From contig CAJOGK010000011.1 of the NCBI GenBank assembly GCA_905234145.1, positions 1 through 49,583 on the forward strand: DNA of 49,583 nt, in the 5' to 3' direction. Origin of the DNA: an uncultured Prevotella sp. (GTDB taxonomy: Bacteria; Bacteroidota; Bacteroidia; Bacteroidales; Bacteroidaceae). This document shows positions 17,116 to 38,257 of the stretch, piece after piece. The notes beneath the pieces were generated by a model. It was not told the origin of the DNA, ran no database searches, and saw only the letters and a program-made list of their open reading frames with translations. How positions within the stretch are numbered: position 1 is the stretch's first letter; every line of letters starts with the position of its first letter. The position numbers were made by a program, and so were the translations under genes.

Positions 17116-17147
17116 TTTGGTGGGTTCAAAAAAAAGCAGTACCTTTG
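17116..17147 (+). promoter_or_regulatory. Promoter of tRNA-Phe
   Basis: TTTG at 17116-17119 (-33) and TACCTTTG at 17140-17147 (-7) with 20 bp between, a good Bacteroidetes vegetative promoter ending 32 bp before the tRNA. Confidence 0.7.
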
Positions 17148-17179
17148 CACCCGCAAACGAAAGGATTGCAACCGAAATT

Positions 17180-17252: not shown

Positions 17253-17268
17253 CTCCTCCTTTCATTAG

Positions 17269-17287
17269 CCCGGTTTCCGGGTTTTTT
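17269..17287 (+). terminator. Intrinsic terminator after tRNA-Phe
   Basis: CCCGG-TTT-CCGGG hairpin followed directly by TTTTTT. Confidence 0.85.
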
Positions 17288-17324
17288 AATTAACATAAAT
17301 CATTAAATTTAAAACATTGAAGTC

Positions 17325-18149: not shown

Positions 18150-18171
18150 ATCCCGCCAAATGGTGGGATTT
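18148..18171. terminator. Bidirectional terminator between convergent genes
   Basis: Arms AAATCCCGCC (18148-18157) and GGTGGGATTT (18162-18171) pair with one G-T and a 4-nt AAAT loop. It separates the plus-strand pantothenate kinase from the minus-strand T6SS run, whose last stop codon is 6 bp away, so it likely ends both transcripts. Confidence 0.75.
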
Positions 18172-18176
18172 ACTAT

Positions 18177-20585
18177 TTAGATATCCTTTTCTATATAAGT
18201 AAAGGTTGTATTACCGATGGTAAAACTCTTACCATGATATAGCCATTCTTCCTTTCCTACAGGCAACGGCTTATCACCAATCAATACCCCGTCCTCAATA
18301 GCACAAATGCGCAAACTGCCACGATACTGACGGATTTCAGCATGCAAAGGTGCCACTTTGCCGTTAACATCCCATGACAATTGAATATTACAATCAACAG
18401 ATTTACCAATCGTAACACTATGTATCGATGATACTCTCAACCATTTATAAAGCGCAATATCCATCTCCTTTATGGCACCTTCGACATGCAAGAAATAGCG
18501 CTCTGACTTAGGAGCTAATCGAGCGATACACAAAGCTATACCTACACAATATATTTTAAAGCTTAATAGGAGTGATACACGATAATCCATGAAGGAATCA
18601 GAATAAAAGAATACCCAAATATACATGGATATAAGACCTACTGCCACAGCAATCAAAAGGAACCACTTACGTATCTTTATATTAGTAAAAGCTGTTACTG
18701 CAAGCATGATTATCCAGCTCATCAAAGCCCATGGAACGCAATCGAGTATCAGTGTATTAGTATCCAAGCGAAGTACAATAGAGATGATACAGCCCAATAA
18801 GAAGCATAAGTAACCTAACAAACCTGCCACAATCGACCTTATGAAGATTTCCTGATAACGATACATCCACTCTCGTTGACATACAGTTAGTGCACACAAG
18901 AACAATGTTAACCAGAAACTAATGTCAAAACCAAAATCTGGTAAATTTAATAAGTGGGAGCCATATTCATTAAAGAATTGCTCCGTAGCTGATGAGCCAG
19001 GTTCCAGACCATTAACCGCCATTACAACCTTACGGATAATGTGTTCTGAATAGTGGTGTGCACGGATCGTAAAGGAAACCCAAGACACCAATCCCGCCAC
19101 TATCGCTACAAGAATCCACTTCATATAGAATGAAGCGTTATGAAAATCCCATAGGTTATTATAATTATAATAATGTGAACCTTCGGGGCAGTGGCGACCA
19201 TGTTCTGGACATTGATAATTATTCTCATCCCAGCAATCTTTATGCATAGCATGCTTGCATTTCACAACAATCTCATCGCCAGCAACAAAGGGACCCTTAC
19301 ACATATAGCATGATTCCGACAACAATTGACCATTGAAGCTCATCTGCCTGCCTTCATAAGTAATTACATAGTTACGCTTAAAAAGCTTGTATTGAATGTA
19401 TGGAATGAGGAACTGGAAAATGAGATAGATGACAAATACAAAGAATATCGTCAATAAGATTCCCTCTAGTACTACCTCGGTCGTAGAATCACCATCGACA
19501 ATGACCGGATCATACATACTACCTAAATAGAAAAGCAACTCTCCTGACACAACAGGCTTTGGCTGTCCTTTTACAATAGTTGCTTTATCATAGAAAAGTA
19601 CATCCAAATGATGACGGTTTCCACGAAAGACCTTCTTTGATGGTAACTCAAATACCATGCGATAGTCAGCATAGTCGATATTAAAGGCACTCATCATATC
19701 TTCAGCAATGGAACGCCACTTGAATTTCGACTGATAAATTCCATCTGACCCTTTACAGAGGTATCTGACAACATTCGTTTCATCCTCGTTCATCACAGCC
19801 AATGAATCAGAATAATTTGCATAATATATCGGTAAGGTCATTCCTGACTTCTGAACCATATTCGTGAGATCCTTCTGCAATTCGAAGTGCTGAGGATCGA
19901 CAGGGATATCATTAATATAAGTCTTACCACCAGATAGAATGACTAAGGCTTTATAGCGGGCATCTTTAAATACGCTGCTACTATCCGTCATCTCGTTCAT
20001 TTTCGTCTTAATCGAACGATACAAATAGGTATATGGCTCTTCAAAACGCTTGAAGTAGGTATTCAGCACATAATCGGAGGCCTCATACGACTCAGAGACA
20101 TTATTACCATACATAAAGGACACATAGAGATTCTTGCGATCAAAAAGGGTTTTGATTTCTTCAACGGCAAAACGCTCGTCATCAATTATTTCCTGAGGCA
20201 AAGAAAGATCGACTAACACTAAAAGTTTCAGACCAAGTTCTGCAACCTCATCCTTGCCAACATTTTTTATTTCTCTAAGAACAGGATGAGAGCCATCAAC
20301 AAAAAGATTGGACAACAACCCTGCACTTAGCATGGCAGCATGCCCGACTTTTGCAGAATCAGCAAGATCATAAGCACCTATGTCATTCGTTAATTTTCCA
20401 GAAACGGTCATGTATTTATAGTCGTCTGAAAATTGAAGATTACTCATCTTCAAACCATCCCCCCGCATCATTGATGTCGAGTCTGTGGGATTCAAATAGT
20501 CACTGACATTGATTTGTTGCTCATCACAGGCCACAAAACAAGCCACTAACACGAATGACGCCAACCATCTTAATATATTCTTCAT
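18177..20585 (-). CDS. Lipoprotein/membrane protein with vWA-like, RING-H2-like and FHA-like regions
   Basis: An 802-residue protein, last gene of the T6SS run. A lipoprotein-type signal ends VACFVAC (Cys16 or Cys20). Residues 115-345 look like a von Willebrand A fold with a partial MIDAS DLSLP at 126-130 and KALVILSGG as a later strand. A helix at 370-398 precedes a RING-H2-like cluster: C426-x2-C429-x13-C443-x-H445-x2-H448-x2-C451-x7-C459, closed by H462 or C466. Six more helices follow (about 488-690), then an FHA-like domain (IGKS at 726-729, H748). Seven helices place the vWA outside and both RING and FHA in the cytosol. The FHA lacks the usual Arg and Ser. I infer an E3-like, trans-envelope component replacing TssLM or TssN/R; it could also be a structural zinc module only. 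Confidence 0.7.
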   Translation of the reverse strand: MKNILRWLASFVLVACFVACDEQQINVSDYLNPTDSTSMMRGDGLKMSNLQFSDDYKYMTVSGKLTNDIGAYDLADSAKVGHAAMLSAGLLSNLFVDGSHPVLREIKNVGKDEVAELGLKLLVLVDLSLPQEIIDDERFAVEEIKTLFDRKNLYVSFMYGNNVSESYEASDYVLNTYFKRFEEPYTYLYRSIKTKMNEMTDSSSVFKDARYKALVILSGGKTYINDIPVDPQHFELQKDLTNMVQKSGMTLPIYYANYSDSLAVMNEDETNVVRYLCKGSDGIYQSKFKWRSIAEDMMSAFNIDYADYRMVFELPSKKVFRGNRHHLDVLFYDKATIVKGQPKPVVSGELLFYLGSMYDPVIVDGDSTTEVVLEGILLTIFFVFVIYLIFQFLIPYIQYKLFKRNYVITYEGRQMSFNGQLLSESCYMCKGPFVAGDEIVVKCKHAMHKDCWDENNYQCPEHGRHCPEGSHYYNYNNLWDFHNASFYMKWILVAIVAGLVSWVSFTIRAHHYSEHIIRKVVMAVNGLEPGSSATEQFFNEYGSHLLNLPDFGFDISFWLTLFLCALTVCQREWMYRYQEIFIRSIVAGLLGYLCFLLGCIISIVLRLDTNTLILDCVPWALMSWIIMLAVTAFTNIKIRKWFLLIAVAVGLISMYIWVFFYSDSFMDYRVSLLLSFKIYCVGIALCIARLAPKSERYFLHVEGAIKEMDIALYKWLRVSSIHSVTIGKSVDCNIQLSWDVNGKVAPLHAEIRQYRGSLRICAIEDGVLIGDKPLPVGKEEWLYHGKSFTIGNTTFTYIEKDI

Positions 20586-20616
20586 CTTTTATATATTTTC
20601 TCAGTTCAATCAAATA

Positions 20617-21486
20617 TTATATCGTAGGATAATCTCTTTGTCCATTTAAGGAGTCACGTAATTTCTTAGCCTGTGCACGCGCTTGTTTAAATGATTTTAT
20701 GCGTGCCGCAGCAAGATTGATAAACATCAGCAAGATAGCTACAGCAGCAAAACCCATCAAATAGTCTTTTACACGCTGTATGAAAGGCTTATAGGCCATC
20801 TCCTGTATCTTGGCCGAAATACTTTTAAGCTGAATGTACCTGACTTCGATTTTTTCCATCCTCTTGCTTAATGCCGGGAATGCTGTAACAGCTTCCTTAG
20901 CTTTGTCGTAATTAGACTGGATATCTGCAAATCTCAACTGTTCTTTTGACTTGAGATTCTCCAAACGAGGCGCTAATTTTGCCACTAGTGACAATTTCAT
21001 CGCTTCTTCATACATCTGTTTATAAATAGAATCCTGACTAAACAGGAGTTTCTCTGCATTGTTAAATCCAACGATTTGATCAAATTGCTGTTTCTTGGAA
21101 TCCAACGAATCAGTCAATGCCTGCTGCATCATCTGCATCTCATCCGACCAACTCAGCAGGCTATCATTATCTGCAATGTAAACTTGCTGTGCTTGTGAAT
21201 ACGTATTCCATCGGGCGTTAAATGATTGCAGTGCCAAATTCAGACGCTTAAAGCGGTCTTCATACATATTTTGTTGAGCAGATGTCATAGAACTTTGCGC
21301 ATCTATATCAAGATACACCATTGCACGCTCGTACAAATCCGACAATTCTGACTTGAATAAAAGCATCTTAGCCTTTATTTCCATCGTCTCAGAATCCTGC
21401 AGTGCCTCTACCTCATCTGTTTGAGCTAGAAGGGGTATCGGCAACAGAGCCATACATAGGATAATGATGTATCTAAGATGCGACAT
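20617..21486 (-). CDS. Exported coiled-coil protein with C-terminal membrane anchor
   Basis: A 289-residue protein. I chose the ATG at 21486 (MSHLRYIIIL) because it overlaps the upstream stop as TAATG and starts the signal peptide directly; an ATG four codons earlier is possible. After the signal sequence (ending near LLAQ), residues about 20-240 are strongly helical with heptad character. A membrane helix (LMGFAAVAILLMFINLAAA) is followed by a Lys/Arg-rich tail, placing the bulk in the periplasm and the end in the cytosol. I do not recognise the family. By position it should be part of the T6SS envelope complex, possibly the counterpart of TssO/TssP of the Bacteroidetes system. Confidence 0.6.
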   Translation of the reverse strand: MSHLRYIIILCMALLPIPLLAQTDEVEALQDSETMEIKAKMLLFKSELSDLYERAMVYLDIDAQSSMTSAQQNMYEDRFKRLNLALQSFNARWNTYSQAQQVYIADNDSLLSWSDEMQMMQQALTDSLDSKKQQFDQIVGFNNAEKLLFSQDSIYKQMYEEAMKLSLVAKLAPRLENLKSKEQLRFADIQSNYDKAKEAVTAFPALSKRMEKIEVRYIQLKSISAKIQEMAYKPFIQRVKDYLMGFAAVAILLMFINLAAARIKSFKQARAQAKKLRDSLNGQRDYPTI

Positions 21487-22646
21487 TATTTCCTGCATTT
21501 AATTTTAAAATATCTCTCCGCCTCACGGAATACCTCCAGAGCACGTTGCTGTTCTGGTGTGCGAGCACCACCTTGTTTAGAAAGCATATCGTTCACACCT
21601 TGTATAATAATATCTACCTGTTTGATGATATCGCGACGTTCGATGGGGTCATTGGAAACCAGCCAACGGGTTACTGAGGCATCAATCTGACGTGCCCTGC
21701 TATGTAATATTCTGGGATTAACACCCTCCTGACCTAAAGCGATGGTATTCTTCTTGGCTGCTTCGGCCACAACACAACTCATGGAGGAAATGGAATCGAC
21801 ATAACCATTATAGGTATCCCAAACCTGCTGCATATCGGGACAATCACTCTTCAACTCCTTGGCAGGATATTGAGTAAGAAGCATCTTCTGCATCTCTTTA
21901 AAGGTTGAAAGAAGATCTTCGGAATCCACTTCTCCCTTTCCAAACTTGCTCTTAATCGAAGCATAAGCCTTTTTCACTGTTTCGACAGCTTCTTGTGCAG
22001 AAGTGAGGTCTTTATCCATACCGAAGCAAGGATTCCGCTGAATCTGTATATTATATTCACGGAACAAGTCTCGCCCATAAGAGATTTCATAACGTTTCTT
22101 ATTAGGATGCTTACTCACATCATCCAGCAACATGACATCACGTAATGTTATTTTCACCTGATTACGCTTACCAAGAATATCAAAGGTTTGAGAAATGTAG
22201 TCATTAACCATCTTATATTCTTGAGGAGCAGGTTGCAGTCCCTCGTAATCGGCCCAACGTTTAAAAACATACTTCTTACGAGGCATAGGCACCGTTTTCT
22301 TGAACAGCGATGTAATCCTATATTGTTCCGAGGGATCGAAAGTCACAACATAGGGGAGCTGATCAGGACGGAGCTTCCTTCCTTTGAAGGTAGGTTTGAA
22401 ACGCACATCTTCACGAAAAACAAACAAAGAGCGATAGGATATCAAATTCACGGTTAAAGTATTCGCTGCTTCATCGAACACGAACTTTACCATGACATCC
22501 TTATCACGGGAATCTTCTTCTAAGCTAATATGGTCCGTATAAGCAGTATCCTGACTAACCGTAATATTCCTGACGGTTTGAGCACTAAGGCCTTGAACAA
22601 CAAGAAAACTTAGTAAGAGAACATATATTCTATTCTTTCTTATCAT
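21486..22646 (-). CDS. Exported periplasmic protein of the T6SS run, family not recognised
   Basis: A 386-residue protein with a signal peptide (LLLSFLVVQGLSAQ). The first half is beta-rich (NITVSQDTAYTDHISLEED, VKFVFDEAANTLTVNLISY, PYVVTFDPSEQYRIT); the second half is helical with conserved-looking cysteines (NPCFGMDKD, KSDCPDMQQVW, SMSCVV). There is no second membrane segment, so it is periplasmic or bound to a partner. It overlaps the E2-like gene by ATGA and the coiled-coil gene by TAATG, so it is translated with them. I infer a structural partner of the trans-envelope complex. Confidence 0.6.
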   Translation of the reverse strand: MIRKNRIYVLLLSFLVVQGLSAQTVRNITVSQDTAYTDHISLEEDSRDKDVMVKFVFDEAANTLTVNLISYRSLFVFREDVRFKPTFKGRKLRPDQLPYVVTFDPSEQYRITSLFKKTVPMPRKKYVFKRWADYEGLQPAPQEYKMVNDYISQTFDILGKRNQVKITLRDVMLLDDVSKHPNKKRYEISYGRDLFREYNIQIQRNPCFGMDKDLTSAQEAVETVKKAYASIKSKFGKGEVDSEDLLSTFKEMQKMLLTQYPAKELKSDCPDMQQVWDTYNGYVDSISSMSCVVAEAAKKNTIALGQEGVNPRILHSRARQIDASVTRWLVSNDPIERRDIIKQVDIIIQGVNDMLSKQGGARTPEQQRALEVFREAERYFKIKCRK

Positions 22647-23242
22647 GATTCTATATCTTGCTTCTGATCAAAATAAATCCATTCATTCGGTTCTCCCTGA
22701 CGTATAACCCAAGAGGCAACTTTCAGGTCCTCAGGATAAGGCGGTTCTGATATTGCATGATATACATTATAGCGCAAGTAATCGGCAATACGTTCCACGC
22801 CCCATACCAAATCTGTATAACTATCATTCATATTCAAACAAACACGTCCTGCAAAATCTCCGAAAAAACGAATATTGGGATGCCAAGGATGCGGTATCGA
22901 CTGCCCCCTCTCATCACAAGTCACAAAACGAAACTCTGCCTGAGCATCAATCGATGGATAACCATCTGGCAAATCAATCCTCATTAGGAAAGAATTAGCG
23001 AAGATCGGCATATTTGCGACGCCTGCCTCCCCGAAATGTTCAAGTTGCTCTACACCACAGATACTACGGATGTGATAACTGATGACATAGGCAGTTGGTA
23101 AACCTTCTGCATTACGCTTTGCCACACGACACAAAATATCATGCCTTCCCTCGAGACGCTCTTCCAAGAGTCTCCATTCGTATAACAGACGTCGATTACG
23201 TCCTTTGTACTTCTTGTCTGAATATCGCTCACTCTCTCTCAT
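22643..23242 (-). CDS. E2-like ubiquitin-conjugating enzyme fold protein
   Basis: A 199-residue cytosolic protein. It has the E2 signature order: a strand pair ending LPDGYPS (residues 91-97), then WHPNIRFFG with the diagnostic HPN at 121-123, then AGRVCLN with the predicted catalytic Cys135, then W147 and the helix VERIADYLRYNVYHAISEPPYPEDLKVASWVI, matching the canonical W-x(n)-L-x-x-I-L and P-x-N-x-x-A region. In E2 enzymes this Cys carries the Ubl as a thioester and passes it to a lysine. It overlaps the Ubl gene by ATGA and the following envelope gene by ATGA. All key residues are intact, arguing for an active enzyme. The substrate is unknown; neighbours suggest T6SS parts. Confidence 0.8.
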   Translation of the reverse strand: MRESERYSDKKYKGRNRRLLYEWRLLEERLEGRHDILCRVAKRNAEGLPTAYVISYHIRSICGVEQLEHFGEAGVANMPIFANSFLMRIDLPDGYPSIDAQAEFRFVTCDERGQSIPHPWHPNIRFFGDFAGRVCLNMNDSYTDLVWGVERIADYLRYNVYHAISEPPYPEDLKVASWVIRQGEPNEWIYFDQKQDIES

Positions 23243-23556
23243 CCAGGGAACGGATCTGGCATTAAAAACACTTTATCTCCATTTTCCACATGATAATCTG
23301 CAAGTGTCTGGTCTGTGCGACCAATACGTGGACGCATCACACGAATCTCATGCACATCAGGGTCCTCTTTACCAAAGAAATAATCAAGTGGTGCTCCCGA
23401 CTCATCAATCGACGGAAAATCAAATATCAACTTGCCATCAGAACCTACTGCATGACGCAAGTTGGTCATCAACGTACTTAACGGGGCTTCTGGATTGACC
23501 ACCCTGAAACGAACCGTTTTGTTTTTATATACTATATCCAAAAAGAAATCTTCCAT
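23239..23556 (-). CDS. Ubiquitin-like (beta-grasp) modifier protein
   Basis: A 105-residue protein. Its C-terminal 22 residues align without gaps to the end of ubiquitin: TLADY-HVENGDKVFL... against TLSDY-NIQKESTLHL..., ending FPG where ubiquitin ends RGG, so the last residue is Gly, followed directly by the stop. The beginning (FFLDIVYKNKTVRFRVVNPEAPLSTLM) fits strands 1-2 and the helix start of a beta-grasp fold; the extra 29 residues lie in the middle. A free C-terminal Gly means no protease would be needed for activation, and indeed no JAB or other deconjugating protease is visible. It sits between tssF and the E2-like gene. An EsaB/YukD-like non-conjugated Ubl is an alternative, but adjacent E1 and E2 argue for conjugation. 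Confidence 0.75.
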   Translation of the reverse strand: MEDFFLDIVYKNKTVRFRVVNPEAPLSTLMTNLRHAVGSDGKLIFDFPSIDESGAPLDYFFGKEDPDVHEIRVMRPRIGRTDQTLADYHVENGDKVFLMPDPFPG

Positions 23557-23567
23557 ATGTCATTATT

Positions 23568-25280
23568 TTATTTTGAGGTTGCAATTTGTATATTTACTAT
23601 GATTGGATAGATATTGGTACTTCGAACTTCTATCATCTTCTGTAGGAGAATCTCTATCTGAGGTATCTTATCTGCAAAACTACGTTTTACAAACATATTG
23701 CCTTCTAGCTCTATATTAACTATTATCTCATAGCCACATTGACGTAAGTCTTCATTCTGACGTCGTCCTATCGAGATATTTTTCACCATATTTCTAACAA
23801 TACCATATCGAGAGAGAAGCTCATTATAACAGAACAACTTAATGTCAGCAGATGTCACAATTCTGTCACAAGTTGCAATGTAATAACGTGAAAGACTAGC
23901 CATTGCTTTTTTGTCCTTTATCTCATCACAACCCATTACAGGGTTAGCTATCATCTGTGTTGCAGTTGCGTTCATACCTGAAGGTACCACAAACGAGCTG
24001 CTTGTACTCAACGATGAGTTGATATTTGCACCAGCTGTAGTTAAATATTGTATTTCAACACTACCACTTCCTGTCCTGATGGAGTTAGGTTCACGCAAGA
24101 AGATATAGACACCAGACACTTGACGCAACTTGTCTTTCTGCGCAGCCTCCATCAATCTACTTAATATCTCTTGTAGTGCCTGCATAGTCTTATCGCCAGA
24201 AATTCCTTGTAGATTCTGGAAGGCATAATAGTCTGAATGATATCTCGCGATCAAAGCATTTAGCAGTCTAACCAAAGTACCTTGATTGAAGCGATCAGCG
24301 GCAACACGCCGTATTTCAATCATACTATTACCATAAATCTGCTCTTCTGACGGTCGGACTGCATGCATAAATTGCGAAGCAGTCTGCCCCTCGGTGGCAT
24401 CATAACCTGCCACGCGAACCACAGGTGTCGCAGCAGAAAGTGTTATATGGTTTATCTGGGCATTAACAAGTAAAATCGGGTTTAACGAGAAATTGCTTTT
24501 ATCGAATACAAACTTGTCAGAGAGACCTTGGAATTCGAAAATCAGATCCAACGTATCCGTTTCTGACTCAATAAACTTTTTTGCATCATGCTTTTTAACC
24601 ACAAAGATGCGCACATTTTGACGAGCAAATAAGTCTAAACAAGCCGTAGACGCCTCGTATGTCTGTGAACGGTTATATAAAATCGTATCAATACCAAAGC
24701 AGTCCATTAGCGGCAACTCAGAATAATCCCAAGGTCTGGCTATTGGCACACGCTGTCCTTTAAGCGTAACCTTAATATCTTGGAAGAACTCGTTTTTGAT
24801 AGCAAACGCGAATCCGGACAGGTCGGAGATTGGAGATACAAAATTCAAAGATATCTTCCAACGTCGGCCATCAATTCTTGTCACAGATTTAACCGTAGCA
24901 TTTAACAATCGCGTCTTCAGCAGGGGCAAGAAAACGAAATCAGAACCAGCTAACGTAAATGTACTCTGACTAGAAATCTCCAACTCTGGAATATCATCTT
25001 GCAAGACACCTTCAACAACAGCAGTAGCAGGCGTTGCATGACCAATCTCATAGGGTGTCAGTAACTGAGCATATTCTTCAAGCACTTCTGCCTTCATATG
25101 CTCATATTCACTAACTGTTTCATTCATTTGATAAGCAAGGGCCGTCATTATAAGTGACATCACAGGATCGTCCTCCAATCCCTCGAGGAAATCACTCTGG
25201 GCACTCTGACGCCAAATATTGATGGCCTCGCGCATCAGTTCATCAGCTCTCTGCCTTGTTTCAAATATTGTTTGTTTCAT
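23568..25280 (-). CDS. tssF: T6SS baseplate protein TssF
   Basis: A 570-residue protein. The N-terminus (DELMREAINIWRQSAQSDFLEGLEDDPVMSLIMTALAYQ, then LLTPYEIGHATPATAVVEG) follows the TssF plan: a helical start, a (H/R)P-x-P-A-like segment and the beta domains. The C-terminal LRQCGYEIIVNIE, FAD-K-IPQIEILLQKM region is the VgrG-proximal wing. TssF forms, with TssG and TssE, the baseplate wedge that joins sheath and spike. It is larger than TssE/G as expected and directly follows tssE (12 bp). Confidence 0.75.
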   Translation of the reverse strand: MKQTIFETRQRADELMREAINIWRQSAQSDFLEGLEDDPVMSLIMTALAYQMNETVSEYEHMKAEVLEEYAQLLTPYEIGHATPATAVVEGVLQDDIPELEISSQSTFTLAGSDFVFLPLLKTRLLNATVKSVTRIDGRRWKISLNFVSPISDLSGFAFAIKNEFFQDIKVTLKGQRVPIARPWDYSELPLMDCFGIDTILYNRSQTYEASTACLDLFARQNVRIFVVKKHDAKKFIESETDTLDLIFEFQGLSDKFVFDKSNFSLNPILLVNAQINHITLSAATPVVRVAGYDATEGQTASQFMHAVRPSEEQIYGNSMIEIRRVAADRFNQGTLVRLLNALIARYHSDYYAFQNLQGISGDKTMQALQEILSRLMEAAQKDKLRQVSGVYIFLREPNSIRTGSGSVEIQYLTTAGANINSSLSTSSSFVVPSGMNATATQMIANPVMGCDEIKDKKAMASLSRYYIATCDRIVTSADIKLFCYNELLSRYGIVRNMVKNISIGRRQNEDLRQCGYEIIVNIELEGNMFVKRSFADKIPQIEILLQKMIEVRSTNIYPIIVNIQIATSK

Positions 25281-25292
25281 CTTCTCTGCTCA

Positions 25293-25748
25293 TTAATTCC
25301 ATACTCTGAATTTCGTCTGATAAGTATAATCTTCTTTCGTTTTGATGATTACCCCTTTCACAGTCACATAAATGAGACGCTCTTCACGTATATATGTCAT
25401 AGAAACGCTGACATTATCCAGCCTTTGCTCATACTTTATCACTGCATCTTTCAATTCTGCTGCAAACGTATTGATACTTTTCGACGAACCACTGATTTTC
25501 TTCTCATATAGACCCTGTATACCATCCATTGTATCAGTATCACCTGAATTAAAGACAACACCCTCATTTTCATTAAACATTTCAAATCTCAGGTTATTGA
25601 ACACAAACCCGAATTGAGGGTCAATAGGCGTACTAAAACGCGCAGTTGTCATGATGAGGTGAATAGCAGAATCAATAGAATTCTTGAGCCGCTCCTCACG
25701 TTTCATTCCTTTCGGAACAATCTGCAACGGTAAATCAATACTTGTCAT
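25293..25748 (-). CDS. tssE: T6SS baseplate protein TssE (gp25-like)
   Basis: A 151-residue protein of the phage T4 gp25/GPW family. The helical REERLKNSIDSAIHLIMTTARFSTPIDPQFG segment is followed by strands and the C-terminal helix ELKDAVIKYEQRLDNVSVSM, matching the conserved I-x-x-(Y/F)-E-x-R-L motif that anchors the sheath to the baseplate. Length is typical (130-160). It lies 6 bp after tssK. Confidence 0.85.
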   Translation of the reverse strand: MTSIDLPLQIVPKGMKREERLKNSIDSAIHLIMTTARFSTPIDPQFGFVFNNLRFEMFNENEGVVFNSGDTDTMDGIQGLYEKKISGSSKSINTFAAELKDAVIKYEQRLDNVSVSMTYIREERLIYVTVKGVIIKTKEDYTYQTKFRVWN

Positions 25749-25754
25749 AATTCA

Positions 25755-26957
25755 TCAGATTTGTGGCATGAAATCTTTCTCCTCTGGTTCAGGAACATAG
25801 AGGGCATTAAACAGATTCTCAAACAACTCAAAGTAGAGTTTCTCATACAATGTGTTATGAAGCTGCTTGCCCAACTCGTCAAACTTCTCTTTTAGCATTT
25901 CATTCATGCGATCTGTTCTACTATCCATTTCGGTAGTCAGCAGATTCAACAACTCTGGTTTTACCGTTCCATTAATATATTCTGTTATTGTCTCTGTTTG
26001 CTGTTTAATCTCAGCCTTTAATTCCTCGCGCATATCCGCCAAGAGTTTCTCGATCAACTCGGGATGGAGTCTTTCATACAACTCTTTTTTAGCCTGTGCC
26101 AGCAAGGCCTCATAGTCGATGGTCGTACCATCGAGCACAACACCATCAAGAATAACAGCGGCACCAGCCAGATAATCATCAAGCCACTGCAACCAAAACT
26201 GAATGTCTGCCTGCGATGGCATTGGAATCGTAAGAGGCTGCTCTCTATTTGGCGTAACAATATAATAATCGATAGCCTGAGCTATTTCTTGTGTCAATAG
26301 GATAAAATCTTGCATGCTATTCTGCAAATTATAGTTCTTTAGCATGAAGACATAACGCAGAATAGCACGTTTACCTTCTCCATCAGCCAAACTCTTATGG
26401 GCAGAAAGAGCCATCAACTTCTCAACATATCTCTCAATGTACTCCTTAAATCGAGGATTGGAGGCGAGTAACAAACAAGGTATGATAAAATCACTATCGA
26501 CACTGAATACGCCTTCATTAACTTTGAATCGTACCAATGGAAACAGATCACCATTCTCTATCTCTTCAATGGTATTGATGGCATAAACATAGTGAGGTCT
26601 GACAAAAGCTACACCATCCTTCTCAAATTCCGTCTGGTCATCGCTGAAACCTATTGTTAAATAGTACCTGTCTCCAAACAGCATGGGGATTGTAACGAGC
26701 AAATCCTCATCGGCATTCACAATCCTTCCTGATGGTAACAGTGCCATACATTGGAAATGGTCTGCCTCAAAACGATTCTTTACAAAAAGTCCCCTACAGT
26801 TAAAAGGAGCACCTGGAACTAAGCCCATTCGATTACTGCCAAGAGCTGCACGCATGGCCAACCTCTGTCTTACTTCCCAATGGTCTGTCATACCAGCAAA
26901 TGCTTCTGCTGTCAGTTCCATTCCTGGCGTCCAGTTGATTTTTGAATTTACATCCAT
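25755..26957 (-). CDS. tssK: T6SS baseplate protein TssK
   Basis: A 400-residue protein. It begins with the typical TssK start INWTPGMELTAEAFAGMTDHWEVRQR, has the N-terminal beta shell (RYYLTIGFSDD, DLFPLVRFKVNEG, DFIIPCLLLASNPRFKEYIERYVEKL) and a long helical C-terminal part (LLADMREELKAEIKQQTETITEYI). Known TssK trimers link the TssFG wedge to TssL and TssM; neither partner gene is seen here, so the C-terminal part must dock on something else, plausibly the 802-residue membrane protein. It is slightly shorter than proteobacterial TssK (about 440) but normal for the Bacteroidetes type. Confidence 0.8.
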   Translation of the reverse strand: MDVNSKINWTPGMELTAEAFAGMTDHWEVRQRLAMRAALGSNRMGLVPGAPFNCRGLFVKNRFEADHFQCMALLPSGRIVNADEDLLVTIPMLFGDRYYLTIGFSDDQTEFEKDGVAFVRPHYVYAINTIEEIENGDLFPLVRFKVNEGVFSVDSDFIIPCLLLASNPRFKEYIERYVEKLMALSAHKSLADGEGKRAILRYVFMLKNYNLQNSMQDFILLTQEIAQAIDYYIVTPNREQPLTIPMPSQADIQFWLQWLDDYLAGAAVILDGVVLDGTTIDYEALLAQAKKELYERLHPELIEKLLADMREELKAEIKQQTETITEYINGTVKPELLNLLTTEMDSRTDRMNEMLKEKFDELGKQLHNTLYEKLYFELFENLFNALYVPEPEEKDFMPQI

Positions 26958-26974
26958 ATATCTCGACCTTTTCT

Positions 26975-27763
26975 TTATTTTTTCAATTCTGTATTATAGT
27001 CCAATACCAACTTGGCATTCGGTTTTCGCATATCATGGTGTTCCTTAATAACAATACTACAATGCATCTCAAAAGGTATAAACCACTCTTTGATGAAATC
27101 ACGTAGAGGCTCCAACTCTTCGTCCAGCTGTCTATATTCATCTGGCGTGAGTCCTGGTATCAGAAGTTCAAACCTAACAGATGGCAGCCATCTGCGTGTT
27201 GTGTCCGTCTCACTATAACGACCTGTTTTCTTTCTTACTTCACAATGCAATAATGAGCCAAGAACAGAAGCCACCTCACCAAAGTTCCCTCGCATCCTGC
27301 TGACATAAGGTAAGAGGAGAGCAGCTTCTCTCACAAATCTATTCGGTTCATTTTCAATATCTACACCAAAATAAGTCTTCAGAACATACGGTAACTTTGC
27401 CTGAAGAAGCTCTGAGGTTTGATCCTCAATTTTCAGGCTCTGTTGGAAATGGAAAGTATCAATAGGCAAGAATGCCTCTTTTAACAATCGCATCCTTCGT
27501 TGTGTCCTATTAAACTTCTCAATAGGCGTATCACCTTTAATAGTAGTTTGTTCTGTCAGGACCCCCTGCGGAAGTAACTTAAGGAAACCATCACGAGACA
27601 ATAATATTTCATGGGTCTCGTCATCAATTTCAAATAAGTCACTATTATAGTTTCTATAGAATACACCTTCGCCACGGACAATCCAATCCTTCGCTTTCTC
27701 CGGATAGAGATAGTTCAACAGCACTTCTGAACGAATATCAGGTATATTATTCTTTTTAATCAT
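26975..27763 (-). CDS. tssG: T6SS baseplate protein TssG
   Basis: A 262-residue protein. Assigned by position between TssK and other baseplate genes, size and motifs: RFVREAALLLPYVSRMRGNFGEVASVLGSLL resembles the TssG helical bundle that precedes the last beta domain, and FELLIPGLTPDEYRQLDEELEPLRDFIKEWFIPF is a typical TssG C-terminal part. TssG is the second wedge component next to TssF. It overlaps the E1-like gene by ATGA, so the two are translationally coupled, which is unusual and ties the conjugation enzyme to the baseplate. Confidence 0.65.
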   Translation of the reverse strand: MIKKNNIPDIRSEVLLNYLYPEKAKDWIVRGEGVFYRNYNSDLFEIDDETHEILLSRDGFLKLLPQGVLTEQTTIKGDTPIEKFNRTQRRMRLLKEAFLPIDTFHFQQSLKIEDQTSELLQAKLPYVLKTYFGVDIENEPNRFVREAALLLPYVSRMRGNFGEVASVLGSLLHCEVRKKTGRYSETDTTRRWLPSVRFELLIPGLTPDEYRQLDEELEPLRDFIKEWFIPFEMHCSIVIKEHHDMRKPNAKLVLDYNTELKK

Positions 27764-28893
27764 ACTTTACTCATTTCAAAATAATAATCTCGACCATCTG
27801 CTAAAACATGAAGAATATCCCATACAGGAATGCCAAGTTCGCCTAAAGAAAGCGACTGATACGGGAACGTTTTATCAACGCGATGATATTCATGTTGATA
27901 GAACTCACTCATTAGTATGCCACGCAAATGCGGATGCTGTTCTACAAAAGCCTCCACCTTTCTTGCAGGTAACATCACTTCTGTACGTCGATCATTTGAA
28001 CGTTCGGAAACGTAATCTACATAACTATCGCCAGATAAGCAAATGGCCACATCGTTTGCATTCAACGTGTATGACAGGATAGCCAATGCTTCTTCAACTG
28101 TTACAGACAATGTCATATCGCATAATTGAACTGGCTCCCAACATGTATGTTCGGCACATTCATCATCAAATGCCTGATAGTCAGCCATTTTCATGGTTAG
28201 ATGTTCACCTTCGTAATAAAACATCTTCCCACAAAGTGAGGTCAGTTCACCAGCTTTCAATGTATCTTGATGAATCAGTTTCAAAGCCTCCTGTACTTGT
28301 ACTGCGCCAATGATTGATGCAACAATGGAGGTTGTTGGAGCAGAGCCCACCATCTCATGCCGATGGATAATTCCTGAACAAGGTAGACGACGTGCTAAAT
28401 CTTTCCTTCCTTCTGGTCCCAAGTTACAGGCATAACAGTTTATTCCTGGCACAAAAACACGTGCCGTACCTTCCAGATCACTGATACCACCATCGACCCA
28501 TGGTTTATTGGCCCTCATGCATAAACGGTTGATACAATAGCGTGCCCAACGGCTATCAACACAACCAATCACAACATCCATGCGTCGAACAAGTCCTAAC
28601 CCAACATCATAAGCAACATCACCACAAATGGTCTTTACCTCAATAGCAGAATTTATTTCTGCCAGTCGCTCTGCCACAACATCCACCTTCAGTCTTTGAG
28701 CTTCAGCATCTTCTTTTCTGAAAAGGACAGAGCGCGTCAGGTTACCCATCTCTACAATATCGAAATCTACAACCACGAGATGTTCTACCCCCATCAGCAC
28801 CAAGTTCTTCAGCACTTCATTTCCTAAAGCGCCACAACCAACCACCATCACGTGGGCTGTCTTTACTTGATTCTGAAGAAAGTTACGACTCAT
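27760..28893 (-). CDS. E1-like (ThiF/UBA family) Ubl-activating enzyme
   Basis: A 377-residue protein. The Rossmann adenylation domain has VVGCGALGNEVL (residues 18-28), VVDFDIVEMGNLTR with N51 and R54, and CVDSRWAR (111-118) as the E1 D-x(4)-R region. CYAC (153-156) with C246/C251 may bind zinc, and C172 in RLPCSG is a candidate Ubl-thioester cysteine. These E1s adenylate the C-terminal Gly of a Ubl, then hand it to E2. An extra C-terminal part (about 255-377) ends SLSLGELGIPVWDILHV, reminiscent of a beta-grasp C-terminal strand. It sits 1 bp after the PEGA gene and overlaps tssG by ATGA. A MoeB/ThiF sulfur-carrier role is possible but the neighbouring E2 and RING favour conjugation. Confidence 0.82.
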   Translation of the reverse strand: MSRNFLQNQVKTAHVMVVGCGALGNEVLKNLVLMGVEHLVVVDFDIVEMGNLTRSVLFRKEDAEAQRLKVDVVAERLAEINSAIEVKTICGDVAYDVGLGLVRRMDVVIGCVDSRWARYCINRLCMRANKPWVDGGISDLEGTARVFVPGINCYACNLGPEGRKDLARRLPCSGIIHRHEMVGSAPTTSIVASIIGAVQVQEALKLIHQDTLKAGELTSLCGKMFYYEGEHLTMKMADYQAFDDECAEHTCWEPVQLCDMTLSVTVEEALAILSYTLNANDVAICLSGDSYVDYVSERSNDRRTEVMLPARKVEAFVEQHPHLRGILMSEFYQHEYHRVDKTFPYQSLSLGELGIPVWDILHVLADGRDYYFEMSKV

Positions 28894-28894: not shown

Positions 28895-30262
28895 CTATTT
28901 CTTTTTCTTTAATTTCATCTCAACATTTACCATGTCGTTTCCGATGACTAGTACTTCTTTCTCGGCATCCCAAAAACCTCTCTTATGCAGTTTTATTTGG
29001 CATCTTAAGCCTGCGGGGAGTTTCTCAACGATGCAAGGAGTTACGCCAACTAATGTGTTGTTGACATAAATCTCTGCACCCACCTCATTACAATGCACAT
29101 TCAAAAAGCCGTAATTTGACATCGGAGCCAACAGGTCTATTTCCTTAGGCGTCTCATCATCTATCCAAAAATAGGTCGTTTTCGACTCAAGATTATCTTT
29201 TTCTGTACTAATGGCATGAAAACCTATCGCGAGTTGTCCATTCCAAGTTCCCATTCCTACATATTCGCGGTCAACCCAAATCTTCGTGCTGTCATCAGCC
29301 GACCTGACAATCACTGGGGCAGTCTTCACCGGCATCTCTTGTTCGATGGCCAATACTGGTGGATTAGGATTGGCTTGTAACTTTGCTTTTGACTTGTTAC
29401 GATTCTTTGAACTGACAGGTTGATGAATTCTAGACACCACTTCTCTTGGATAGAGATCGCTGGATGTCAATTCCAAGAACTTCTTTTCTGCCCTACCTAT
29501 TTCTATAGTAGCATCATAATAGCACTGATCACCTAACATCACAACCAAACGGTGCTTGCCTTCTAATAAGTGTCCACTGGTTGCCTGGGTTTCTCCAATC
29601 ATCTTCCCATCTACAGAAATCAAACCACCTTTCAAGGGTGTTTTCACCGTTAAATAAGAATAAAATGGCTGCAAGGCTATAGGAACGGTTATTCTACCCG
29701 TATCCTCTACCTCAATTGTGCCCTCTTCTGGTTCATGAAAAGGTGATTCTATACGATAGTTATGACTACCTAATGGCAAATTTAGTTGAAGAATTCCTGT
29801 ACGCGTCATCGTTGTTGTGCTATCCACCATTACAATCGCTTCCCTAGGCTGAATATCAAATACCACCCATTGTTTCTGGATTTTATATTCTTTATCAGGA
29901 CTAAATGTCAGCAAATTAGCCAAATAGCGTTTCTTTTTCCTCAGACTCTTGCCTGGAACTTTCCATGTTAACTGACCATACTCAGCATGTTTCACGGTAA
30001 TAAATGTGGTTTTATGCGGCACCTTAAGCGACAACATTTCATCACCCTCCTCTGCCTGTACTTCGGTCTTACCGTTGGCTAGGAAAGTAAAGCCCTTCTC
30101 GCCCGTCTTCAAATCTATAATTGCTTCCTTCTTATCGGTCACAAGATGGCGAAAATTAAAAAGACCTTTGTTCTGTTTCTTAAAGTCTTCAATACGCATT
30201 TCCTGTGCACTTACTCTAAGAGCAAGCAACAACAATATTATAATGTTCAACCACTTTCTCAC
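28895..30262 (-). CDS. Exported PEGA-domain protein of the T6SS run
   Basis: A 455-residue protein. Signal peptide ...LLALRVSAQ, then an all-beta body with repeated PEGA-like elements: SVDGKMIGETQATSGHLLEGKHRLVV, IWVDREYVGMGTWNGQLAIGFHAI and IYVNNTLVGVTPCIVEKLPAGLRCQIKLHKRGF; the last is a textbook PEGA repeat. A low-complexity basic linker (SSKNRNKSKAKL) splits the halves. PEGA domains are surface or peptidoglycan-facing beta modules. It lies between the PAAR-like and E1-like genes; I infer a periplasmic or outer-membrane-associated part of the injection machine, possibly doing the job of TssQ/TssR. Confidence 0.65.
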   Translation of the reverse strand: MRKWLNIIILLLLALRVSAQEMRIEDFKKQNKGLFNFRHLVTDKKEAIIDLKTGEKGFTFLANGKTEVQAEEGDEMLSLKVPHKTTFITVKHAEYGQLTWKVPGKSLRKKKRYLANLLTFSPDKEYKIQKQWVVFDIQPREAIVMVDSTTTMTRTGILQLNLPLGSHNYRIESPFHEPEEGTIEVEDTGRITVPIALQPFYSYLTVKTPLKGGLISVDGKMIGETQATSGHLLEGKHRLVVMLGDQCYYDATIEIGRAEKKFLELTSSDLYPREVVSRIHQPVSSKNRNKSKAKLQANPNPPVLAIEQEMPVKTAPVIVRSADDSTKIWVDREYVGMGTWNGQLAIGFHAISTEKDNLESKTTYFWIDDETPKEIDLLAPMSNYGFLNVHCNEVGAEIYVNNTLVGVTPCIVEKLPAGLRCQIKLHKRGFWDAEKEVLVIGNDMVNVEMKLKKKK

Positions 30263-30278: not shown

Positions 30279-30668
30279 TTATTTCCCCTGTGTCGACATG
30301 CTGCCACTAGGATTAGTCACTGATATCTGCCCACCATAGGAGCACATACATTTGGCATTGTTAATCAGCGCAGGTGATCCCCCCACCTTAACTTGACCGC
30401 CTGGACTCCATGGCGCAGAAACCACAGGAATACATGGCATAGGTGTAAGAACACCCATTGCCGCTGAGGTTGCCGCAGATACTGTTGGGTTAGACAACGA
30501 CTGACACATACCAAAAGTCATGATATTTACTAATGGCACATAATCAGTAATGTTAGCCATCAAACAGCCTCCACATTTTGGACGTGTTGGAATAATCACA
30601 GTCAATGTAGAAGGTGCCATTCCAAAAGTGCATTGGAGCATAGCTCCCATACATACAAAATTACCCAT
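30279..30668 (-). CDS. PAAR-like spike-tip protein (DUF4280 type)
   Basis: A 129-residue protein starting MGNFVCMGAMLQCTFGMAPSTLTV, with GGCLMANITDYVPLVNI, FGMCQSLSNP, MPCIPVVSAPWSPGGQVKVGGSPALINNAKCMCSYGGQI. This is the DUF4280 pattern, a PAAR-like fold with Pro-Ala-Ala-Arg-type motifs replaced by cysteines (about nine visible), expected to bind zinc at the spike tip. The family is frequent in Bacteroidetes T6SS loci. It sits 11 bp downstream of the barrel gene and has no effector extension, so it is a structural tip or an adaptor for a toxin encoded elsewhere. Confidence 0.8.
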   Translation of the reverse strand: MGNFVCMGAMLQCTFGMAPSTLTVIIPTRPKCGGCLMANITDYVPLVNIMTFGMCQSLSNPTVSAATSAAMGVLTPMPCIPVVSAPWSPGGQVKVGGSPALINNAKCMCSYGGQISVTNPSGSMSTQGK

Positions 30669-31598: not shown

Positions 31599-31997
31599 TT
31601 ACTTCCAAGGATTCTCAAATGCTACAGGACCGTTTTCGAGCTTCTGACATACGATCTCGATGTCCTCGTAATGCTCCTCACCATCGGCCCAGTACTCCTT
31701 GTACTTCACGCAGTAGCAACCTGTTCCCTTCAACTGCTTCATGTTTTTACCATCAATGGTGTTCTGGAACTTAACAGTGAAGTCGCGTGGATCTGTTGGA
31801 GCCAGCATCCAACCCAGCAACTCAGTATTACCATCGTTCAGAGCCTTTACGCGAATGTTCACTCTACCGCCACGGGGAATACCTGAAATCTGACCTTCAC
31901 GATCGGTAGTCTGACTGAACTTGTAATCAACTAAGATTACCTCACGTGCTACGAAATCCTTAACCTCAAGGGTTACCGGTGTTACATTTTCTGCCAT
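31599..31997 (-). CDS. tssD: T6SS tube protein Hcp/TssD (copy 2)
   Basis: A 132-residue tube subunit of the Bacteroidetes TssD type. It shares with copy 1 the pattern F-x-x-REV-x-x-V-x-Y-x-F-x-Q-x-TD-x-EGQ-(I/M)-SGIPRGG and the closing I-x-I-x-C-x-x-(L/I)-E-x-G-x-V-x-FEN-x-W. Hcp stacks as hexameric rings inside the sheath. The middle differs strongly from copy 1 (ELLGWMLAPTDPRDFTVKFQNTID), so the copies may be specialised, for example one for cargo. Confidence 0.85.
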   Translation of the reverse strand: MAENVTPVTLEVKDFVAREVILVDYKFSQTTDREGQISGIPRGGRVNIRVKALNDGNTELLGWMLAPTDPRDFTVKFQNTIDGKNMKQLKGTGCYCVKYKEYWADGEEHYEDIEIVCQKLENGPVAFENPWK

Positions 31998-32045: not shown

Positions 32046-32438
32046 TTATGCCCACTCGTTCTCAAACTTGACAGAACCAACTTCGATGTTCTTGCAGGTG
32101 ATGACGATCTCCTCGAAGTGACCTTTCTTGTCTTCCCACTTCTCTTCGAATTCTACACAGTAGGCGGTCTCAAACTTGATAGATTTCATTGCCTTGCCTG
32201 TCTTGGTCTCCAAGAATTCAATGCTGCCATTCTTTCCAAGATTGCGCTCTATCATCCAACGCAGCAGGCCGGGTAAACCATCGTTCCGAGCCTTTACACG
32301 AACTCTGATCTTACCGCCACGGGGGATACCGCTCATCTGACCTTCAACATCGGTTTCCTGCTCGAAATCGTAGGTAACCATCATCACTTCACGGTCCTTG
32401 AAACCGTCAATCTTCATTGTAACTGGAGTCTTTGCCAT
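32046..32438 (-). CDS. tssD: T6SS tube protein Hcp/TssD (copy 1)
   Basis: A 130-residue paralogue of the next gene, with MAKTPVTMKIDGFKDREVMMVTYDFEQETDVEGQMSGIPRGG-type start (split here: IDGFKDREVM, SGIPRGGKIRVRVKARND) and the C-terminal VITCKNIEVGSVKFENEW strand. Size and fold are those of Hcp hexamer subunits. It follows tssC (50 bp gap), so sheath and tube genes are adjacent as in other T6SS loci. Confidence 0.87.
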   Translation of the reverse strand: MAKTPVTMKIDGFKDREVMMVTYDFEQETDVEGQMSGIPRGGKIRVRVKARNDGLPGLLRWMIERNLGKNGSIEFLETKTGKAMKSIKFETAYCVEFEEKWEDKKGHFEEIVITCKNIEVGSVKFENEWA

Positions 32439-32488: not shown

Positions 32489-33859
32489 TTATGCACTAGC
32501 AAGAGCAGCTTCCTTGTCCTTCTTGTCTGCAGCAACCTTAATAATAAAATTCTTTGCAGCATAGAATGGGGTCAGCGTGATTTCACATGTAATCTGCTTG
32601 GTAACGGGATCCTGACGAGGTTCACCAATCTCATAGTTCTGGAACAAATTTCCATAACCTTTATACATATTTAGGAACTCCTGAATCTTTGACTTCAGGT
32701 TCTTCGGACTGTTGTATGGATCCCAGTTTTCGAGAGCCACCTCATGCACGAAGTTCATCAGTACCTTCTTTACCCAGTCGAATACGCGAACAATAGGATA
32801 CTCTTTCATGGCATCGAGGTCACCATTATAGAGCGTGGTGTTGTTAAATGCCATTACACGACCATCTGAGTAAACCATAGGAATCACCTGGTTATCCATC
32901 AGGGCAGCAATCTCCGACTTTAGCAAGTCGCTCTTTACACCCTTCACACCATCAAGTGTACCATACTTCTTACCACCAGCACCCTGAGCCATGTTGGCTG
33001 TTTCGTCATATAACTTACCGCAGAGTGCAGCCGCAGGTGCTATATAGAAAGCCTTCTGATCTTCCTCGTCTGAAGACATCTTCTCAGACTCACGACCTAC
33101 AATCCAGTTAGCTGTCATAACGACATTCATCAAGCACTGGTCGCTGTCGCGATAGCCTTCAGTGTTAGCCTGCAAGTCATCGAATGAATACTCATCAGCA
33201 TGGTCGGTAAGCAACATTACCTTATATTTAAAGGCCATCTTAGCCCACTGCAGCAGGTCAACTTTATCTGTAAACACAGCACCAGGAACGCAAACCAAAC
33301 TATAAGCATCCTTCAGGCTCAGACGATCGAAACCATTACGGAGGATATTCTCAACCTCACCTGCAAAGCCGGAATCTGCATCTGCAATATCCTCTTTCAA
33401 AACATTGATAATACGCAGGTTCTTTACCTTATCGGTACCACAAGTTTTAAAGAAAGAATCGAGCTGACGATAACTGCGCTCCAAATTCTGAGTGGTATAA
33501 AGTGCATCAGTAATACCTTGCTTCAGCACGTTTGTATATTTCTCTTCAGCTTGTTTACAAGCATCTGCGAAACCTGTAGCTGTATCAATACTATCATCAC
33601 TGAGCAGTTCAAGCCAACGTGAAATTTCCTTTTTCAGACTCTCACGCTTATCTTTAAAGCGCTTATCTTTCAAGAACACGTCCTTAGCTGCCTTTCTAGC
33701 AGGGTTCATGTTATCTGCATCGGGCATAAAACCACGAATAGCGTTAAAGCCACCAAAAGATGACAACAATTTGCTGACATCTTTCTGGCCTTCTTTCTCT
33801 TGAAGTTGAGCACCAGCCTGACCAGCTGCCTGTGCTTTCTGCATTTCTGTATCTGCCAT
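32489..33859 (-). CDS. tssC: T6SS contractile sheath large subunit TssC (VipB)
   Basis: A 456-residue protein of the Bacteroidetes TssC type. It has ISRWLELLSDDSIDTATGF near the N-terminus, LERSYRQLDSFFKTCG, the long central domain with DRLSLKDAYSLVCVPGAVFTDKVDLLQWAKMAFKYKVMLL and the C-terminal CEITLTPFYAAKNFIIKVAADK strand, where the handshake of sheath subunits occurs. With TssB it forms the contracting sheath around Hcp. Position between tssB and hcp confirms the call. Confidence 0.88.
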   Translation of the reverse strand: MADTEMQKAQAAGQAGAQLQEKEGQKDVSKLLSSFGGFNAIRGFMPDADNMNPARKAAKDVFLKDKRFKDKRESLKKEISRWLELLSDDSIDTATGFADACKQAEEKYTNVLKQGITDALYTTQNLERSYRQLDSFFKTCGTDKVKNLRIINVLKEDIADADSGFAGEVENILRNGFDRLSLKDAYSLVCVPGAVFTDKVDLLQWAKMAFKYKVMLLTDHADEYSFDDLQANTEGYRDSDQCLMNVVMTANWIVGRESEKMSSDEEDQKAFYIAPAAALCGKLYDETANMAQGAGGKKYGTLDGVKGVKSDLLKSEIAALMDNQVIPMVYSDGRVMAFNNTTLYNGDLDAMKEYPIVRVFDWVKKVLMNFVHEVALENWDPYNSPKNLKSKIQEFLNMYKGYGNLFQNYEIGEPRQDPVTKQITCEITLTPFYAAKNFIIKVAADKKDKEAALASA

Positions 33860-33918: not shown

Positions 33919-34383
33919 TCATTCTGCACCCTCCAATTCGCTGAGCATAGACTGAAGCATCTCCTTCAACTCTTCACGGCTTCCTGCTTCTTTCAGAATG
34001 TCACGGAGTTTACGGTTCTGCTCAATACTCTTACGAATTTTAGTATTGGTATCAATCTGCTCCTTTGTACCTGAGAGGAATGGACTGTTTTGTACAAGAC
34101 GGCCCTTACCACCCTGTGCCTCAAAGTCACGAATCTCACCAAAATGCAGCGTCTCTTCTACTGCGCCACCTTCTGCATCAGTAAAAGTAACATTAACTTT
34201 TGGCTTGAAGCGCTCAAAGGCATCATTAATGTTCTGGATATCATCCACAAACTCAGGATTACCTGCCTCAACATCACTTGTGTACTGGTCGATCATCAAC
34301 GTTTTGTTTTGGTCGATCAAACTGACTTTCGCACTGCTCTCCTCATCGGGAGCCATTGAGATAAAATTCTCTTTCATTGCCAT
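33919..34383 (-). CDS. tssB: T6SS contractile sheath small subunit TssB (VipA)
   Basis: A 154-residue protein upstream of tssC. It has the TssB layout: central FVDDIQNINDAFERFKPKVNVTF, then ETLHFGEIRDFEAQGG (TssB F-x-(D/E)-(D/E)-F-like segment) and a C-terminal helix IRKSIEQNRKLRDILKEAGSREELKEML matching the conserved helical tail. It pairs with TssC. The codon start at MAMKENFISM follows a 42-bp gap after clpV. Confidence 0.82.
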   Translation of the reverse strand: MAMKENFISMAPDEESSAKVSLIDQNKTLMIDQYTSDVEAGNPEFVDDIQNINDAFERFKPKVNVTFTDAEGGAVEETLHFGEIRDFEAQGGKGRLVQNSPFLSGTKEQIDTNTKIRKSIEQNRKLRDILKEAGSREELKEMLQSMLSELEGAE

Positions 34384-36906: not shown

Positions 36907-36935
36907 AATTACGGTTATTATAAGTTTATTGCCCA

Positions 36936-36943
36936 CAAAATTA
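36936..36943 (-). promoter_or_regulatory. -7 promoter box of the T6SS run
   Basis: The minus strand reads TAATTTTG, 29 bp upstream of the clpV ATG at 36906, with a TTG near 36966-36968 (minus) as a possible -33. It supports the shorter ClpV start and marks a promoter divergent from 37042. Confidence 0.55.
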
Positions 36944-37018
36944 AGTATTTTTTCTAAAATAAACACAAGTAATTATGAGTATCAATTTAAGTTTTTACAA
37001 TCTTTAACTTTAAATAGC

Positions 37019-38246: not shown

Positions 38247-38257
38247 CAATAAATAAT

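Follow-up and report, generated by a model that had tools for sequence, protein, structure and literature searches.

Genes for ubiquitin-like tagging inside the baseplate gene run of a type VI secretion system from a distinct branch of Bacteroidota

Burroughs, Iyer and Aravind are said to have predicted, in 2011, prokaryotic RING-type cassettes that combine an activating enzyme (E1), a conjugating enzyme (E2) of the HPN type, a YukD-like ubiquitin-like protein (Ubl) and a JAB protein. Here we describe the same enzyme set in a 49,583-nt stretch of DNA from an uncultured Prevotella sp. (contig CAJOGK010000011.1; referred to as the window), which by its gene content holds a type VI secretion system (T6SS) from a distinct Bacteroidota branch with ubiquitin-like tagging genes inside its gene run. 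Relatives of this cassette also encode YukD-like Ubls, a membrane protein with vWA, RING and FHA parts and a JAB protein. In contrast to the predicted cassettes, T6SS baseplate genes interrupt the set, which holds a fixed position in their operon, and the JAB protein appears to have been lost in the clade of the window.

Related enzymes are employed in defence by Bil, Bub and CBASS. Bil (BilABCD) likewise encodes a Ubl, an E1 and an E2 together; it has a tandem-domain BilA and a JAB protein, BilC (PMC11354881). Bil comes without T6SS genes, whereas the window Ubl is a single-domain protein of 105 residues, not a tandem, ISG15-like one, and has no JAB partner. Type II CBASS with Cap2 and Cap3 has E1/E2 chemistry on a C-terminal Gly in common with the window; however, Cap2 unites E1 and E2 functions and conjugates cGAS (PMC10097602), whereas E1, E2 and Ubl are separate here and Pfam scans of the run gave no CD-NTase. 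With regard to the secretion machinery, a 2024 survey reports 443 T6SSs of subtype iii (T6SSiii) in 1,253 genomes, with the TssNQOPR membrane complex wholly or partly present in every one and tssN systematically located between tssK and tssG, and it presents a model of TssN in which an EccD-like ubiquitin-like domain binds TssK (PMC10781749). The window shares TssB, TssC, Hcp, ClpV and TssE/F/G/K with this subtype, exemplified by the Bapteste-type T6SSiii of Bacteroides fragilis (PMC10781749), but has no TssN, no gene between TssG and TssK and no matched VgrG, and adds E1, E2, Ubl and a RING-FHA protein. A literature search, with most subscription papers outside its reach, found no description of such a cassette in a T6SS, including T6SSs lacking TssN.

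We consider it fairly probable (roughly 60%) that E1, E2, Ubl and the RING-FHA protein, encoded among the baseplate genes, link the Ubl covalently to one of the machine's components, as an assembly step at the inner membrane. This reading builds on four points that are apparent from sequence and predicted structure: which parts are present, the invariance of their catalytic residues, the constant position of their genes within the baseplate operon and the lack of TssN in the loci.

A conjugation cascade among baseplate genes

The genes form a single run on the minus strand from 36966 to 18177 in the order ClpV, TssB, TssC, two copies of Hcp, a 282-aa protein, a presumably PAAR-like DUF4280 protein, a PEGA-domain protein, E1, TssG, TssK, TssE, TssF, Ubl, E2, a 386-aa protein, a 293-aa protein and the RING-FHA protein; all genes of the run for which coordinates are given below lie on this strand. 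Overlaps of 4 bases between E1 and TssG, Ubl and E2, and E2 and the 386-aa gene suggest translational coupling.

The E1-like protein (27760..28893, 377 aa) belongs to the ThiF family (Pfam ThiF, 6.1e-51), and its profile matched the adenylation domains of UBA7, UBA1 and SAE2 at about 1e-29. A scan of genome contigs with an E1 alignment returned 532 relatives, the best 80 of which served as the locus set for the counts given here. Cys172 was kept in all 79 aligned rows (the 80th being gapped) and would be the catalytic residue; C153, C156, C246 and H249 were likewise kept in 79/79 rows and probably form a zinc site, and Arg54 was kept in 77/80. Invariant positions also occurred in the C-terminal region of about 130 residues past the ThiF domain, which may be an E2-recruiting ubiquitin-fold domain. 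Cofactor or sulfur-carrier chemistry of the ThiF/MoeB type with no protein conjugation would agree with the ThiF family membership and with NCBIfam matches to ThiF/MoeB models, every one of which fell below cut-off; it is hardly credible, as E1 is encoded together with an E2 of the HPN type and a RING protein, joined in relatives by a JAB protein, and the run contains no biosynthesis genes.

The E2-like protein (22643..23242, 199 aa), encoded in an open reading frame separate from that of E1, showed an E2 fold in its predicted structure and carries HPN at positions 121-123 followed by Cys135. H121, P122, N123 and C135 were kept in 72/72 rows, and in a wider protein search HPN was retained in 120/120 homologues among the matches listed. 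The Ubl (23239..23556) is predicted to form one beta-grasp domain (AlphaFold pLDDT 88.2) with structural matches to EccD5, which came first in Foldseek, and to ubiquitin folds. All 73 complete relatives ended in PFPG (60), as does the window protein, or PIPG (13), Gly being the last residue in each, and the PG end recurred in 119 of the 120 Ubl homologues among the matches listed in the wider search. Pfam matches to UQ_con, ubiquitin and RING were all weak and below cut-off.

The fourth component, a candidate membrane E3 of 802 aa (18177..20585; Pfam RING, below cut-off, and FHA), is laid out as a signal peptide, a periplasmic vWA-like part, one transmembrane segment (TM), the RING, six further TMs and an FHA domain at 724-791. 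All eight Cys/His residues of the RING (C426, C429, C443, H445, H448, C451, C459 and C466) were kept in 69/69 rows. The vWA-like part was assigned by alignment to relatives with a Pfam VWA match, which the RING protein of G474 has, and its metal site (MIDAS) is degenerate or lost. According to hydropathy, the RING sits between TM1 and TM2 and the FHA domain past TM7; both would hence face the cytosol, where the baseplate docks, with the N-terminal part in the periplasm, and the catalytic domains of the cassette are predicted to be cytosolic.

The initial annotation had recognized a Ubl, an E2, an E1 and a RING-type membrane protein within a T6SS operon, which was confirmed by the folds (predicted structures for E2 and Ubl, sequence for E1), by sequence and by the conserved residues. 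Of the two outcomes that it had named as refuting, neither occurred: the folds were the expected ones, and gene placement in the homologous loci was not random, the order E1-TssG-TssK-TssE-TssF-Ubl-E2-386aa-293aa-RING being kept among the genes present in 80/80 cases; 70 loci had the full set of ten genes and the other ten stopped at contig ends. TssG (26975..27763; profile probability 88.7 against canonical TssG) directly followed E1 in 80/80 loci, and is succeeded in the window by TssK (25755..26957; TIGR03353 1.7e-6, below cut-off, and profile probability 97.8 against canonical TssK), the gp25-like baseplate wedge protein TssE (25293..25748; Pfam gp25 6e-8) and TssF (23568..25280; tblastn against canonical TssF 2.7e-13). 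The host organisms include Prevotella, Xylanibacter ruminicola D31d, Bacteroides mediterraneensis An793, Mediterranea massiliensis, Millionella massiliensis, Parabacteroides distasonis An863, and uncultured Alistipes and Paludibacteraceae; the branch of carriers is one of gut and rumen bacteria.

Within these loci, the Ubl was closer to its homologues than E1 (73/73 loci), E2 (72/72) or the RING protein (70/70) were to theirs, and it was also more conserved than each of the baseplate proteins (73/73 each). It was less conserved than the sheath and ClpV, which it surpassed in none of the loci compared (TssB 0/12, TssC 0/12, ClpV 0/5). As this conservation exceeds what its own fast-evolving enzymes would need, we infer that the Ubl has its partner among the conserved tail proteins.

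According to a paper on Hor et al. 2024 (PMC11364771), such a system covalently links ubiquitin-like proteins to the central tail fiber of phages, and the cassette might be a Bil-like antiviral one that puts the Ubl onto the tails of infecting phages and happens to sit in a T6SS locus. We regard this as very improbable in view of the strict interleaving with baseplate genes in 80/80 loci and the congruence of the trees with that of TssC (see below). In addition, PADLOC gave no match for Ubl, E2, RING, 386-aa and 293-aa proteins, and E1 matched only generic E1-E2 models. Tblastn searches retrieved no homologue of E2 from 50,697 phage records and none of the Ubl from 72,556 plasmid records, a result that argues against a mobile module for defence; an origin from a mobile element or phage was rejected on the same results.

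TssN and the membrane complex

Among 14 genomes with T6SS genes, TssN, the hub of the membrane complex, was detected over cut-off in six. No match was obtained in G000, G018, G593, G474, G410, G653 and G669, and G020 gave a single match of 19.6 bits, below cut-off and on another contig, which was set aside. Of these eight genomes without an over-cut-off TssN, all but G669 were read at the T6SS; five carry the cassette, and G410 and G653 have none in the about 39 kb read (TssN-free and cassette-free T6SS loci L027/L028 and L031/L032, respectively). The genome of the window itself is among those with no TssN match. TssG and TssK adjoin in 79/79 loci with a gap of at most 106 bases, which leaves no room for a gene in the usual tssN slot, and in three genomes with TssN (G523, G054 and G705) the T6SS regions contained none of the cassette genes.

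A further search of eight named genomes identified one TssN over cut-off, in Bacteroides mediterraneensis G822 (222 bits). As a counter-example this match was rejected: it belongs to a second, canonical T6SS (L138) on another contig, where it lies between TssK and a TssG-like match. G822 hence has a ubiquitin-type T6SS (L085) alongside a canonical one of the TssN type and represents a natural internal control; TssN and the cassette exclude each other per locus, not per genome. A TssN match in G820 (19.3 bits, below cut-off) was set aside, since the 11 kb read there showed no T6SS gene. Regarding the other subunits, TssO/P/Q/R had no Pfam match among the scanned locus proteins, and TssR as well as the 296-, 168- and 164-aa proteins of the canonical locus had no profile match among the locus proteins; no genome-wide search was made for either group.

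Two genes between E2 and the RING gene encode candidate periplasmic partners of the RING protein. The 386-aa protein (21486..22646) has a signal peptide, is presumed periplasmic by hydropathy and belongs to no known family, with zero Pfam matches at E 1; its gene adjoins that of E2 in 71/71 loci reaching that far. The 293-aa protein (20617..21498) has a signal peptide, a long, presumably helical periplasmic part, one C-terminal TM at 247-265 (hydropathy) and a short cytosolic tail, and its gene was present in 70/80 loci, the remainder being cut by contig ends. The idea that these two are JAB proteins that lack their JAB domain was dropped at profile values of 0.1 to 0.3; they occupy the same slot, which is all that can be said.

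The TssN model also bears on what the Ubl does. In this regard, the Ubl might be a structural or docking part that E1 and E2 load non-covalently or in a chaperone-like manner, without an isopeptide product: EccD-type Ubl domains serve as scaffolds in type VII secretion, the ubiquitin-like domain of TssN was modelled as EccD-like and as binding TssK (PMC10781749), EccD5 is the top Foldseek match of the window Ubl, and the conservation of the Ubl is nearly at the level of the sheath. Unlike TssN, EccD or YukD, the window Ubl is a free protein that ends in Gly and comes with conjugation enzymes of its own, and it has no profile similarity to TssN. We judge a purely structural role to be unlikely, since the invariant E1 Cys, the E2 Cys and HPN, the free C-terminal Gly and the JAB protein of four relatives would be needless without a covalent bond.

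Deeper relatives, history and variable genes

A search for the E1 family at E 1e-45 identified members in 6/393 genomes of the order and 4/394 of the phylum, nine in total as the window's own genome is in both, and in five of the nine (own, G474, G593, G790 and G816) the gene lies inside a T6SS. A membrane-tethered JAB protein with an HSHPG...SxxD motif was found in 4/4 deeper T6SS relatives, namely G474, G593, G790 and G816; the Ubl of G790 is known only as a partial raw translation. A JAB of this type was absent from the window locus and from the three searched genomes of the window clade, and a JAMM motif scan of the 80 loci gave zero real motifs, the sole hit (L072) being set aside as its frame contains stops. 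G018 and G020, which came from the search for relatives, show a match over the whole of the window and lack a JAB of this kind. The earlier guess of a one-way modification therefore agrees with the window clade but does not extend to the deeper T6SS relatives.

More distant copies of the cassette lie near extracellular contractile injection systems (eCIS). In G123 and G217, cassette and JAB occur beside PAAR and eCIS_core genes, with a sheath gene 21 kb and 45 kb away, and the eCIS of G123 comprises sheath, tube, gp25 and spike genes. The loci L015 and L134 (G123) and L136 and L016 (G217) contain nSTAND genes too, beside cassette and JAB, PAAR and eCIS_core. In G051, the cassette adjoins SrfB and SrfC and the only sheath match is on a different contig; its locus L013 (1548-18543) encodes vWA-RING and JAB proteins and a YukD-like Ubl with four residues past the Gly, for which trimming by JAB would be needed, and L014 of the same genome contains more Ubl-like and JAB-like open reading frames. 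In G239, only E1 and Ubl were found within the 30 kb read.

The E1 and RING trees, for which 13/80 and 10/80 loci were hand-picked for spread, agree in that G474 branches first, then G790 with G816, then G593 and the window clade. The TssC tree, for which nine of the loci were selected but L077, L080 and L100 dropped as too short, has the same splits among these rows, with TssN systems beside G474 and G410 beside G790/G816. All trees were midpoint-rooted for drawing. Together with the JAB in the four deeper T6SS members, the trees suggest that the cassette was recruited once, that the window clade lost JAB and that a loss or a gain took place at the branch of the TssN systems.

Upstream of E1, the run encodes the remainder of the T6SSiii core found in the window (TssB/C sheath, Hcp, ClpV and TssE/F/G/K): the ClpV/TssH ATPase (34426..36966; Pfam AAA_2, AAA_lid_9 and ClpB_D2-small), TssB (33919..34383; PF05591 0.083, below cut-off, with tblastn identity to TssB of canonical loci), the adjoining TssC (32489..33859; Pfam TssC 9.4e-100, over cut-off) and two Hcp/TssD copies (32046..32438 and 31599..31997; Pfam TssD 9e-29 and 8.7e-20). 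These are followed by the DUF4280 protein that we take to be PAAR-like (30279..30668; Pfam DUF4280 1.2e-28) and the PEGA-domain protein (28895..30262; Pfam PEGA 5.3e-20). Pfam scans gave no VgrG match in the window run; 47/80 related loci have VgrG. In many loci (L025 of G593 at 11952-19319; L040-L049), variable genes lie between Hcp and PAAR/PEGA, among them 781-aa-type and VgrG genes, and are probably cargo and immunity genes.

That the cassette shares its run with Hcp, PAAR-like and, in 47/80 loci, VgrG genes, and that its eCIS-linked copies adjoin cargo-type eCIS_core and PAAR genes, would fit a cascade whose substrates, tagged for loading, are effectors or the Hcp/VgrG/PAAR spike instead of the assembly machinery. 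However, its constant neighbours are TssG-K-E-F of the baseplate, whereas genes for spike and cargo differ from locus to locus, and we assign this explanation a low probability.

Divergent from the run and adjoining ClpV, a plus-strand region (37047-48475) encodes a response regulator-SpoIIE phosphatase, a WD40 protein and two proteins of the histidine-kinase type, together with TonB-dependent receptor plug, STAS and AraC proteins. In L059 and L087, too, a relative of the SpoIIE type is located near ClpV, and partner-switching may therefore regulate this T6SS.

A proposed assembly step at the inner membrane

In the proposed covalent step, E1 would adenylate the C-terminal Gly of the Ubl and pass the Ubl, by way of Cys172, to Cys135 of E2, and the cytosolic RING of the 7-TM protein would receive the charged E2. 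Fha proteins in other T6SSs act via phospho-threonine, and the FHA domain may gate Ubl transfer on such a residue. The Ubl would then be placed onto a conserved protein of the tail, the baseplate or the anchor, and the RING protein, together with its two partners in the periplasm, would provide the membrane platform, the role of TssNQOPR elsewhere. In the four deeper relatives, the membrane-tethered JAB protease, predicted to be cytosolic, would reverse the attachment; in the window clade, where JAB is seemingly lost, the step would be one-way or undone by an unrelated enzyme.

Several observations weigh against this reading. The cassettes of G051 and G239, which lack a T6SS, indicate that the chemistry can serve other ends, and the TssC-bearing G410 and G653, with no cassette in the about 39 kb read, show that a missing TssN alone does not imply one. 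The genome of the window is 85% complete, so that absences there are weak. The RING matched Pfam models at 4e-4, below cut-off, and has a spacing of C-x6-C in its last Cys pair, not C-x2-C. Homology to TssN was rejected for the Ubl and the RING-FHA protein (profile probabilities 0.1 and 0.8), as was kinship of the 386-aa and 293-aa proteins to canonical TssO/Q/R-like proteins, to which they have no profile similarity; the proposed replacement of the membrane complex is left with exclusion, topology and place as its only grounds. Conjugation itself, its target and its gating are proposals from sequence and predicted structure.

A wider interpretation, which we regard as doubtful, is that a free ubiquitin, attached post-translationally by the cascade to the membrane platform, licenses baseplate docking, that the domain hard-wired in TssN of the Bacteroides fragilis type is the other solution to the same step, and that ubiquitin signalling of the eukaryote-like kind has an original home in contractile injection machines, both T6SS and eCIS.

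The loci would correct the view that TssNQOPR, as a whole or in part, occurs in all T6SSs of Bacteroidota, and would open to test how the baseplate is brought to its membrane anchor in a T6SS that has no TssN. If the proposed assembly step is true, a cascade with a separate E1, an E2 of the HPN type and a RING protein, plus a JAB deconjugase in relatives, would operate as part of a bacterial weapon instead of antiviral defence, and bacterial ubiquitin-like systems would thereby gain a new function. Strains such as Xylanibacter ruminicola D31d and Bacteroides mediterraneensis An793 would then offer a tractable setting for the roles that such systems had before eukaryotes.

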